Origin: Leifsonia aquatica H1aii
GTDB taxonomy: Bacteria; Actinomycetota; Actinomycetes; Actinomycetales; Microbacteriaceae
Length of the DNA: 64,000 nucleotides
Direction: 5' to 3'
Assembly (NCBI RefSeq): GCF_000633535.1
Contig: NZ_AYMR01000006.1
Coordinates: forward strand, 62,001 to 126,000
This document shows positions 2,533 through 64,000 of this stretch, piece after piece (the first letter of the stretch is position 1; every line of letters begins with the position of its first letter). The notes under the pieces were generated by a model. It was not told the DNA's origin. It was given only the letters and a program-made list of their open reading frames with translations, and did no database searches. Made by a program: the position numbers and the translations under genes.

Positions 2533-3786
2533 TCAGGCGCTCGCGGCGGCCTTCCGTGGCCGCACCGCCGGCGCCGCGAGGAACGACGCGAGCAGCAGGG
2601 CGAGGATCAGATAGAGCGCGTTGAGGAGTCCGAACTCCTTGCCGAGGAAGCCGATGACCGGCGGACCGACCAGGAAGGCGCAATAGCCGATGATGGCCAC
2701 GGCCGACACGCGGGCGGCCGGGTTGCTCGCCCCGTCCGCGGCGGCGGACATGCCGAGCGGGAAGCCGAGGGAGACGCCGAAGCCCCAGAGCAGCGTGCCG
2801 ATCACGACGACCCACATCGGGCCGCCCAGGATGAACAGCAGCAGACCGGCGACGCCCATCGCGGCGGTGATGCGGATCGCGTTGACCCGGCCGATCCGGT
2901 CGACGATCGGGCCGCCGGCGACGCGACCGACGGTCATGGCCGCCACGAAGCAGCCGAAGACGACGGCGCCGGTCGAGTTCGCCTGGCCGTGCCCGTCGAC
3001 GACCGCCAGGGAGATCCAATCGTTGGCCGAACCTTCGCCGAACGCCATGCCGAGCATGACGACGCCGATGAGGATCAGTCGCCAGTCGGCCCATACGGAG
3101 AGCGCCGCGCGCATCCGGTCGCCGAACGGCACGCGCGGGGCGTCGGCCTGCTCGTCGCCGAGCTCGGCCTCGCGCGGGATGAAGCGGATGGCGACGGCGA
3201 TGCCGGCGACCAGCACGACCGCGATCCCCAGCAGATGCCACGCGACACCGATGTGCAGGGCGGCCGCAGCGGCGCCGATGCCCGCGCCGATCACCGTGCC
3301 GAGGCTGAAGCAGGCGTGCATGAGCGGCATCAGCGTCTTGCCGATCTCGCGCTCCACCGCTGTGCCCTCGACGTTCATCATCACGTCGAGCATCCCGTTG
3401 CCGAACCCGAGCAGGATGAGCCCGATCGCGACGACCGGGACCGAGTGGAACACGGTCGAGCCGAGCCCGAGGGTGGCCGTGCCCACTGCGGCGACGGTCA
3501 GCGCACCGAACATGGACTTGTGGGGTCCGAAACGCACGAGCACGGGGGAGGAGAGCGCGAGCCCGAGGATGGCCCCGGCCGACATCCCGAGGATCAGCAG
3601 GCCGATCGAGGAGGTGTCCTTGCCGAGATCGAGGTCGTCGCGCACGCCGGGGATCCGGGCGACCCAGGTGGCCGTCGCCAGCCCGCTCAGGACGAAGACG
3701 CCGAAGATGGCGTTGCGCCAGGCGGCGAGCTCACGGCGGCTGCGCGCCGGAGCGGCGGTGGGGGAGGTCGGGGTCGGCTGTGACAT
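2533..3786 (-). CDS. MFS transporter
   Basis: A 417-residue major facilitator with about 12 hydrophobic segments in two six-helix halves separated by a charged loop near the middle (REAELGDEQADAPRVPFGDR). The conserved loop between helices 2 and 3 is GPHKS, a degenerate motif A. The ATG at 3786 is preferred over an upstream in-frame start at 3831 because it begins just before a disordered Pro/Thr-rich tail and leaves the palindrome at 3832-3859 in the promoter. Divergent from a LacI regulator, which very likely controls it. The family includes sugar and drug exporters; the substrate is not deducible. Confidence 0.85.
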   Translation of the reverse strand: MSQPTPTSPTAAPARSRRELAAWRNAIFGVFVLSGLATATWVARIPGVRDDLDLGKDTSSIGLLILGMSAGAILGLALSSPVLVRFGPHKSMFGALTVAAVGTATLGLGSTVFHSVPVVAIGLILLGFGNGMLDVMMNVEGTAVEREIGKTLMPLMHACFSLGTVIGAGIGAAAAALHIGVAWHLLGIAVVLVAGIAVAIRFIPREAELGDEQADAPRVPFGDRMRAALSVWADWRLILIGVVMLGMAFGEGSANDWISLAVVDGHGQANSTGAVVFGCFVAAMTVGRVAGGPIVDRIGRVNAIRITAAMGVAGLLLFILGGPMWVVVIGTLLWGFGVSLGFPLGMSAAADGASNPAARVSAVAIIGYCAFLVGPPVIGFLGKEFGLLNALYLILALLLASFLAAPAVRPRKAAASA

Positions 3787-54525: not shown

Positions 54526-55713
54526 TCAGCGCCAGAGCAGCAGCGCGTCTCCCTGCCCGCCTCCGCCGCACAGCGCGACCGCCGCTCGCCCCGACCCGCG
54601 GCGGGCGAGTTCGTGCGCGGCGTGCCCGGCGAGCCGTGCCCCCGAGGCGCCGATCGGGTGCCCCAAAGCGATGGCGCCGCCGTGGATGTTCACGGTCGCG
54701 TCGTCGACGCCGAGATCGGCCATCGACTGAAGGGCGACGGCCGCGAACGCCTCGTTGATCTCGATGAGGTCGAGGTCGTCGGCCGTCCATCCGGCTCGGG
54801 CGAGGGCCGCCTCGATGGCGTGGGACGGCTGCGAGTGCAGCGAGTTGTCCGGCCCTGCGACCTGGCCGCTGGCACCGACGACGGCGAGCCACTCGAGCCC
54901 GAGCCGCTCGGCGTTGGCCCGGCTCGTCAGCACGAGCGCGGCCGCACCGTCGCTCAGTGGGGACGAGTTGCCGGCCGTCAGGGTGCCGCCCTCGGCGAAG
55001 CTGGGGGACAGTCGGGCGAGTGTCTCGGTGGAGGAGTCCGGGCGGACGCCCTCGTCGTCGGCGACGACCACTGGCTCGCCCTTCCGCTGCGGGATGCGGA
55101 CCGGCGCGATCTCGGCGTCGAAGATCCCGGCGGCTGCGGCCGCCCCGGCCCGCTGGTGCGACCCGGCGGAGAACGCATCCTGTGCCTCGCGGGTGAGGCC
55201 GAGCCGCTCCGTGTACCGCTCGGTCGAAGCGCCCATGGAGATCCCGTCGAAGGCATCCGTCAACCCGTCGTGCGCCGCGGAGTCGAGCGCCGGGATGGAC
55301 CCGTATGTCCATCCCATACGTGATCCGGGCAGGAGGTGCGGTGCATTGGTCATGGACTCCTGGCCGCCCGCCACGACCACCGTCGCCTCGCCCGCCCGGA
55401 TCAGCCGGGCCGCGTCGATGACCGCGGCGAGGCCGGAGAGGCACACCTTGTTGATCGTGGTCGCCGGCACGTCCCAACCGATCCCGGCGGCGATGGCCGT
55501 CTGCCGCGCGGGGTTCTGGCCGGCGCCCGCCTGGAGCACCTGCCCGAAGATCACCGCGTCCACCGCGGCGGCGTCGATGCCGGAGCGCTCCAGCGCCTGC
55601 GCGAGCGCCGCAGACCCGAGCTGCACCGCGCTCTGCGAGGCGAGCGCTCCCTTGATCTTGCCGAACGGGGTTCGGGCGGCGGACAGGATGACGACGTCGT
55701 CCGGGCTGGCCAT
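54526..55713 (-). CDS. Acetyl-CoA acetyltransferase (thiolase)
   Basis: A 395-residue thiolase. The acyl-accepting Cys91 is in TINKVCLSGLAAV, the base His in GHPIGASGARLAGHAA, and the second Cys in ALCGGGGQGDAL. This is the biosynthetic/acetoacetyl-CoA-forming pattern, but beta-ketothiolase in fatty-acid or propionate-related degradation is also possible. The ATG at 55713 has AAGGAG 6 nt upstream, one of few classic Shine-Dalgarno sites here. Converges with prpC with 64 bp between. Confidence 0.92.
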   Translation of the reverse strand: MASPDDVVILSAARTPFGKIKGALASQSAVQLGSAALAQALERSGIDAAAVDAVIFGQVLQAGAGQNPARQTAIAAGIGWDVPATTINKVCLSGLAAVIDAARLIRAGEATVVVAGGQESMTNAPHLLPGSRMGWTYGSIPALDSAAHDGLTDAFDGISMGASTERYTERLGLTREAQDAFSAGSHQRAGAAAAAGIFDAEIAPVRIPQRKGEPVVVADDEGVRPDSSTETLARLSPSFAEGGTLTAGNSSPLSDGAAALVLTSRANAERLGLEWLAVVGASGQVAGPDNSLHSQPSHAIEAALARAGWTADDLDLIEINEAFAAVALQSMADLGVDDATVNIHGGAIALGHPIGASGARLAGHAAHELARRGSGRAAVALCGGGGQGDALLLWR

Positions 55714-55800
55714 GTGCTGCTCCTTCGTTGCGTGATGACTCCATTGTGTCTCCACGGCGCACGAAGGCCACGGGGTCCGCTGAATCCGTGGACAGATCGT

Positions 55801-55870
55801 TCATCCACAGCTCTGGGGAGAGATTTCGTCGCGTTGTCCACAGCGTGGGTCGAGCAGGCACTTATCCACA
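55801..55870 (+). other. Cluster of three DnaA-box-like 9-mers
   Basis: TCATCCACA (55801-55809), TTGTCCACA (55834-55842) and TTATCCACA (55862-55870) are in one orientation with starts 33 and 28 bp apart. The last is the E. coli consensus and the middle is the mycobacterial-type consensus. They lie in the 207-bp gap between the divergent thiolase and radC genes, close to the radC -10 box (TACCGT, 55909-55914). Not an oriC: no dnaA/dnaN context and no AT-rich stretch. Confidence 0.75.
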
Positions 55871-55920
55871 GATTGTGACCGGCGACCCCGGGGGCCCGAG
55901 CGGTTTCCTACCGTGAAGGC

Positions 55921-56685
55921 ATGTCCCACGAAGCGTCAGACGAGGAGGAGTCCCTTGCGAGCATTCCCGTGCACGATCGGCCGAGGGAACGGATGCGTCG
56001 GCTCGGCGTCGGCGCGCTCACGGACGACGAGGTGCTCGCGCTCGTGCTCGGCTCGGGCCAGTCCGGCAAGAGCGTGCGGGCACTCGCCCGATCGATCCTG
56101 CGCCGCACCGGCGGGTTCCCGGGTCTGGCGACCATGGACTTCGCCCGCCTGGAGACCCTTGCCGGCGTCGGGCCTGCCACCGCGGGTCGCCTGGTCGCCA
56201 TCATCGAGATCTGGCGGCGGGCCGGGGCATCATCGGCCTGGACCCGGTTGGTCGACGACAAGGCGGTCGCCGACATCGTCCGGCCGGAGCTTCTGCATCG
56301 CGACAGCGAGAGATTCGTGGTTGTGGTCGCGGACCGGGCCGCGCGGCCGCTCGAGCTCGTCCTGCTGCACGACGGCGGCGTGGACGAGGCGCGCATCCAA
56401 CCCGCCGACGTGCTGCAGTCCGTCCTCACGCGTGGGGGGAGGTCGTTCGCCGTCGCGCACAACCATCCGTCGGGCGTCACCGATGCGTCGGTCGCCGACC
56501 TTGTCCTCACCCGACGGTTGGATCAGGCCGCGGCGACGATCGGCCTGCGCTTCCTCGGGCACATCCTGGTCGCGGGCGATCGCTGGGCGGCGATCGGTGC
56601 GACCGGTGGCGGCTCTACGGGGTCAGGCGGGTCGGTCCACGGAAGAGATAAGTCGTCTCGCGCAGGTTCGAGAGGTGCAGCATGA
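55921..56685 (+). CDS. radC: RadC-family JAB-domain protein
   Basis: A 254-residue protein with an N-terminal helix-hairpin-helix region (LGVGALTDDEVLALVLGSG and LETLAGVGPATAGRLVAI) and a C-terminal JAB/MPN domain whose HNHPSG motif (about 180) with S and D at 189 and 192 fits the metal-site pattern of RadC. Despite the name a DNA-repair role is doubtful; natural transformation and mobile-element links have been proposed elsewhere. Leaderless ATG after TACCGT. Its last 71 bp overlap the convergent aspS gene, giving a Gly/Ser-rich tail. Confidence 0.88.
   Translation: MSHEASDEEESLASIPVHDRPRERMRRLGVGALTDDEVLALVLGSGQSGKSVRALARSILRRTGGFPGLATMDFARLETLAGVGPATAGRLVAIIEIWRRAGASSAWTRLVDDKAVADIVRPELLHRDSERFVVVVADRAARPLELVLLHDGGVDEARIQPADVLQSVLTRGGRSFAVAHNHPSGVTDASVADLVLTRRLDQAAATIGLRFLGHILVAGDRWAAIGATGGGSTGSGGSVHGRDKSSRAGSRGAA

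Positions 56686-63584: not shown

Positions 63585-64000
<416 letters not shown>

Follow-up and report, generated by a model that had tools for sequence, protein, structure and literature searches.

A conserved box upstream of radC in Leifsonia, a candidate competence operator of Microbacteriaceae

Three 9-mers resembling DnaA boxes stand in one orientation within 70 nt upstream of radC in Leifsonia aquatica H1aii, in the 64,000-nucleotide stretch of DNA analysed here (the window). What are such sites doing there, away from dnaA? The sequence-only reading took them for DnaA boxes that might titrate or reactivate DnaA, or make transcription of radC and the divergent thiolase gene depend on the state of replication. 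The comparisons below support the view that the sites look regulatory and belong to radC, and point to another regulator.

Sites between radC and the thiolase gene

All three 9-mers are present as described. TTGTCCACA and TTATCCACA match TTRTCCACA exactly and TCATCCACA with one mismatch (Table 1). Matches with at most one mismatch are ordinary in number over the window as a whole (eight, against 5.4 expected, a count reached by 21 of 100 shuffles), which is the one point in favor of clustering by chance. Triplets on one strand within 70 nt occurred in none of 150 windows simulated from a first-order Markov model, on both strands, so the claim of clustering beyond chance held. This simulation, together with conservation across genera (see below), led to the rejection of chance clustering, whose probability is negligible. 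A genome-wide count of TTRTCCACA, obtained like the other whole-genome counts by pattern searches, gave 22 exact sites in 4.58 Mb and 2 + 7 for the reversed control. The radC pair forms a close group among these, and the only other close groups lie on contig C34, which carries dnaA and dnaN (both identities confirmed). One of these regions, C34:28309-28455 (L090), is a second cluster of DnaA-type boxes with three exact copies of TTATCCACA and near matches, about 16-18 kb from dnaA/oriC.

Table 1. Features of the radC-thiolase region, in window coordinates
Feature	Position	Strand	Remarks
Acetyl-CoA C-acyltransferase (thiolase) gene	54526..55713	-	divergent from radC; TIGR01930 4.6e-127, above cut-off
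-10-like hexamer CACAAT	55743..55748	-	47 nt from start of inverted box
Inverted com box CTGTCCACGGAT	55784..55795	-	9/10; possibly serving divergent thiolase
9-mer TCATCCACA	55801-55809	+	
Third box-like site TCATCCACAGCT	55801..55812	+	lineage-specific; 33 bp upstream of distal box
9-mer TTGTCCACA	55834-55842	+	
Distal com box TTGTCCACAGCG	55834..55845	+	8/10; 28 bp upstream of proximal box
9-mer TTATCCACA	55862-55870	+	
Proximal com box TTATCCACAGAT	55862..55873	+	10/10; starts 59 nt upstream of radC ATG
-10-like hexamer TACCGT of radC	55909..55914	+	six bases before ATG
radC	55921..56685	+	254 aa; UPF0758 N-terminal and RadC-like JAB domains

The radC product matches PF04002 (7.5e-23) and PF20582 (9.4e-19) above their cut-offs and the NCBIfam RadC models below theirs; it is 90-92% identical over the best segment to RadC of Leifsonia sp. 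71-9 and L. aquatica DSM 20146. Given how close TACCGT lies to the ATG, the radC transcript is probably leaderless. The third box-like site, whose counterpart in L023 and L024 is TGATCCACAG, falls outside the two-box arrangement that is widely conserved. In the window, Rfam and tRNA scans returned nothing but the start of a 16S rRNA gene, at 63585-64000.

On the other strand, the inverted box is separated from CACAAT by the same spacing as the radC box from its -10 hexamer. L023, L024, and L117 keep this inverted 12-mer and its 47-nt distance from CACAAT (L116 and L115 seem to duplicate the genomes of L023 and L024). In five other loci, L027-L030 and L032, the hexamer reads GACAAT and no box stands 47 nt from it. 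Because the inverted box and CACAAT are kept at a radC-like spacing, both divergent genes in the window's clade may answer to one regulator. Thus the proposal of joint control survives in part, the inverted copy fitting a divergent thiolase promoter, although such control would not run through DnaA. A thiolase transcript from this promoter would not be leaderless, since the thiolase start lies further downstream of CACAAT.

A 12-mer at a fixed promoter position

The site, called the com box here, is an asymmetric 12-mer, YTnTCCACnGAT. Its first base stands 59-60 nt ahead of a leaderless ATG, a -10 hexamer lies between the two, and often a further copy is present some 28 bp upstream of this proximal box. 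Absence from close relatives would have refuted the sequence-only reading; an alignment of 13 radC loci (the window, 11 named Leifsonia, and one Diaminobutyricibacter) instead shows the proximal box conserved. TT-TCCACAGAT of the proximal box is invariant in 13/13 loci, as are the ATG and the T, A, C, and T of the -10 hexamer TAnCnT, and there are zero invariant columns between box and hexamer. All four bases occur at position 3 of the 9-mer. By reading, the box stays at radC where the upstream neighbor is a different, non-thiolase gene (L025, L026, L031, and L033).

Across the genus, radC was found in 27 of 28 genomes, and 26 of the 27 loci score at least 9/10 against TTnTCCACnGAT with a TCC-to-ATG distance of 56-58 nt; the 27th radC is frameshifted, yet bears TTCTCCACAGATTG. 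In the 2.6-Mb genome G222, radC is split by a frameshift (L138/L139) and the comEA and tadA boxes were not found; decay of the uptake system is probable there. Nine radC loci from other Microbacteriaceae genera divide into five that reach 8/10 or better, three with TCCACAG at 58 nt, and one with no such site. Outside the family, none of 15 scored loci reaches 8/10; the best scores 7 (L044), and L065 is without a scorable start. These 15 are the actinobacterial subset of 40 radC loci from outside Leifsonia and Diaminobutyricibacter. The radC counts outside the genus leave out two weak partial matches (L087 and L088) and a second fragment (L089).

Is the conserved element a DnaA box? Two exact TTRTCCACA sites and a near match within 70 nt speak for it, and TCCACA is the DnaA-box core. 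The proximal sites before radC, comF, comEA, and tadA across the genus give 103 boxes for comparison. Positions 1 and 2 favor T (81 T, 19 C, and 3 G; then 98 T), each position of TCCAC (4-8) is kept in 98-103 of the 103, and positions 10-12 read G in 100, A in 86, and T in 99. Position 3 is mixed (63 C, 21 G, 11 A, and 8 T), and so is position 9 (53 A, 22 C, 20 G, and 8 T). In contrast, 14 H1aii boxes from oriC, from upstream of dnaA, and from the neighboring cluster have A at position 3 in 11 and at position 9 in 12, and their next three positions carry little information, with no preference for GAT. Selection bears on both samples: the 103 were chosen by a score that counts GAT and ignores positions 3 and 9, so that GAT is inflated in them and the freedom at positions 3 and 9 is unbiased, and the 14 were chosen by likeness to TTRTCCACA, so that their missing GAT is unbiased.

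The fixed position in the promoter likewise speaks against DnaA boxes. The TCC-to-ATG offset spans 55-58 nt and is 56 or 57 in 100 of 102 genus promoters. In the 12-mer 28 bp upstream, a box-like core is present at 22/26 radC, 24/28 comF, 18/22 comEA, and 13/26 tadA promoters; at comEA, on reading, the distal box often falls inside the loop of a terminator-like hairpin, and its conservation there may therefore have another cause. Like this site, the known DnaA box clusters (oriC, datA, and DARS) have the core TCCACA, and two of the three sites are known DnaA-box 9-mers. Com boxes differ from them in the free positions 3 and 9, the GAT extension, the fixed promoter position, and the set of uptake genes. 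Actinobacterial DnaA tolerates variation at box positions 1-3, which counts for the DnaA reading. On balance, the motif and a gene set concerned with DNA uptake rather than replication make it most likely that the three 9-mers are something other than DnaA boxes; the proposal that they titrate or reactivate DnaA, or let DnaA act as a transcription factor on radC and the thiolase gene, was rejected and is now improbable.

Genes that share the box

Which genes bear the com box? Among the 28 genus genomes, a box of at least 8/10 at the common offset precedes the comF-like gene in 28, comEA (with comEC downstream) in 22, and the Flp-pilus ATPase gene, tadA, in 26; the best-scoring start within range was taken per locus, and the scores are therefore somewhat inflated. 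The tadA test was a prediction from one boxed CpaF/TadA-type gene in the family-wide search and from the need for Flp pili in transformation of Micrococcus luteus. It counts one tadA-type locus per genome, from the group at about 130-155 bits; a second is present in some genomes. The two tadA misses are H1aii, whose gene is interrupted, and G222, and the six comEA misses include two small genomes, G200 and G222. H1aii comEA has TTCTCCACCGAT at the regular offset and a further box-like copy 28 bp upstream.

In H1aii, a gene for a large serine recombinase, preceded by a Cro/CI-type HTH gene, interrupts tadA at L340 (contig C30, 1235-3998); the recombinase frame ends at 3565, and the match to the ATPase picks up again at about 3603. 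A comparable case of a mobile element in a DNA-uptake gene is the prophage in comK of Listeria. With tadA interrupted, this Leifsonia strain may not be transformable by the Flp-pilus route.

Searching the H1aii genome for TCCACAG, a gap, a -10 hexamer, and an ATG gave nine sites (reversed control, 1 + 1). Seven precede radC, the comF-like gene, recQ, a DUF4916/NUDIX gene, and three AbiEi/restriction-endonuclease-like genes; of the others, L145 opens 28 codons only and L147 is without an assigned gene. The comF-like protein has a phosphoribosyltransferase domain above cut-off and matches the NCBIfam ComF model below cut-off. A wider pattern adds a second RecQ-like helicase gene, a crotonase gene, and transporter-like and dehydratase-like genes, the last two of which may be chance matches. 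Six further genomes have 17 pattern sites, whose genes were named by eye: nine precede repeated members (radC twice, NUDIX twice, recQ, crotonase, and three nuclease-like genes) and eight precede other genes or no open frame. The crotonase (enoyl-CoA hydratase) gene is boxed in two genus genomes (L397 and L161).

For crotonase, NUDIX, and thiolase a role in competence is not obvious. Some of the matches, crotonase and NUDIX, are metabolic genes, as might be expected of a general element of leaderless promoters unconnected with DNA uptake. Control starts speak against such an element, which we regard as very improbable. The box rule selects 4 of 4965 starts (frames of at least 100 codons at 60 T2SSE/dprA loci), and two of the four are true tadA starts; the 60 loci include five further T2SSE loci, with two true tadA starts among them. 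On the oriC contig the rule selects 2 of 759 starts, and in the window 2 of 1587, one of which is radC. At 30 T2SSE loci a pattern of the box kind matched twice within the 1.5-kb span, never before the ATPase frame. The usual competence gene dprA was rejected as a member of the regulon: neither TCCACnGAT nor TCCACAG occurs in any of 30 loci from 28 genomes over the 5' 1600 nt covered, a span that a promoter further upstream would escape. Likewise, no box was seen within 1.5 kb of pilB, whose operon starts may lie outside that span.

Of 199 Microbacteriaceae genomes, 126 contain the composite pattern and 7 its reversed control (the latter counted by eye); in 73 the strict pattern is without a match. 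Among the matches listed, 28 new loci were read, of which seven open short frames only and others include tadA, an alkB-like gene, a cytosine methylase gene, and AbiEi-type genes. Nineteen further matches, also among those listed, were hand-picked, nine for a LexA-like palindrome and ten for a good -10, and are thus not a random sample of genes. In eighteen of them the frame runs to 96 codons or more; these are tadA, comEA, two prepilin peptidase genes, recQ, ogt, eight DUF222 genes (picked for their palindromes), and four others. The AbiEi/restriction-endonuclease-like genes that bear a com box are single genes, possibly expressed during DNA uptake. Of 18 AbiEi/nuclease-type genes scanned, six have a Pfam match above cut-off (L141, L284, L300-L302, and L402), four have one below it (L142, L146, L149, and L152), and eight have none.

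The presence of recQ, ogt, an alkB-like gene, and radC among the boxed genes raises another explanation, that the box is the operator of a DNA-damage regulon, distinct from that of LexA, in which uptake genes take part. Consistent with this, eight DUF222 genes (L457-L461 and L463-L465), of which some encode an HNH domain, and the alkB-like gene L296 combine a com box with a LexA-like palindrome, seen by eye, that sits between box and -10. A damage regulon is nevertheless unlikely, because the most regular members, comEA, the comF-like gene, and tadA, are not repair genes. A LexA-like palindrome (CGAAC-N4-GTTCG type) was not seen on reading 55714-55920 of the radC region, and no recA or uvr gene was recognized among the H1aii box matches read. 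Mycobacterial RecA-NDp/PafBC promoters have the form TTGTCRGTG-N8-TANNNT and resemble the com-box promoter in joining an actinobacterial element to a TANNNT -10. They differ from it in sequence and in spacing, which is 8 nt there and 35 nt from box to -10 at radC (55873 to 55909); with no such motif 8 nt upstream of the hexamer, this promoter type was rejected for radC.

How far does the box extend beyond the genus? Regions of comEA were sampled in 51 of 113 ComEC-bearing genomes, with comEA outside the genus defined by its position upstream of comEC rather than by a family search (L469 was checked). Five of six further comEA loci within the family are without a box of 8/10. Of 45 comEA regions from other families of the order, ten that lack a leaderless start were set aside, which left 35 promoters. 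TCCAC occurs in the corresponding 17 nt of 23 of the 35 promoters, leaving 12 without it, and TCC[AC]C in 29, against local backgrounds of 1.4% and 2.8% per 17-nt stretch, respectively; TCC[AC]C also occurs 75-93 nt upstream in 17 of the 35. Order-wide use of the full 12-mer was rejected, as it is not kept outside Microbacteriaceae, where only the TCCAC core holds at comEA.

A putative activator of DNA uptake

The shared box at a shared distance from the ATG of comEA, comF, and pilus ATPase genes looks like the DNA-uptake switch of this group, and the fixed distance to a leaderless start, along with the gene set, fits a transcription-factor operator. We therefore consider it likely that Microbacteriaceae have a regulon for competence (natural DNA uptake) and that the site is the operator of its member radC, read by a candidate activator. 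Such a protein would recognize the 12-mer, often as two direct repeats 28 bp apart, centered about 54 and 82 bp upstream of the leaderless start. The asymmetry of the box suggests that the protein would bind as a monomer or in tandem. With a -10 present but no conserved -35, the leaderless promoter would be weak by itself, and the activator probably would recruit RNA polymerase to it. In the genus it would act on comEA with downstream comEC, the comF-like gene, and tadA; in single genomes across the family it may also act on recQ, ogt, alkB, prepilin peptidase genes, and putative nuclease genes, and in the window's clade the inverted copy may couple the thiolase gene to the radC signal.

Several known systems use one operator for DNA-uptake and DNA-processing genes, as proposed for the com box. 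They include the ComK box and the cin-box/com-box of ComX/SigX in Bacillota and the CRP-S sites of Pasteurellaceae; the streptococcal competence operator is common to uptake and processing genes, radC and comF included. The com box described here differs in sequence, in its position relative to a leaderless start, and in phylum.

Within Actinomycetota, the gene set resembles that of M. luteus competence, with comEA/EC and the Flp pili of two tad clusters. Transformation of M. luteus needs ComEC and Flp pili (PMC4322843). According to PMC12849477, from 2026, M. luteus is without ComK and ComX, and its competence regulon and regulators are described there as unknown. A mutant screen in M. luteus pointed to the HTH_17 protein Mlut_14660 as a candidate regulator (PMC8467076); for the protein that might read the box it is a lead only. 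Competence as the condition for activity is suggested by the gene set and by natural DNA uptake during dark incubation in the freshwater actinobacteria Rhodoluna lacicola and Aurantimicrobium photophilum (PMC11577799). PMC8591293 reports that tad/com genes of R. lacicola rise in the dark, comEA excepted in the results, and that those of A. photophilum are not coordinated. In the literature search, a box of this kind was not announced in any title or abstract found.

More tentatively, and short of an even call, one conserved operator may control natural transformation across the actinobacterial order of Leifsonia; one operator would in turn suggest one conserved activator, probably. AbiEi/restriction-endonuclease-like and DUF222-HNH genes, some of them with a LexA box, may have adopted the operator for expression when foreign DNA enters. 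An operator with fixed geometry would serve as bait for its regulator, predict the regulon, and enable a reporter search for inducing conditions in transformable species, and so bears on how competence is switched on in Actinomycetota.
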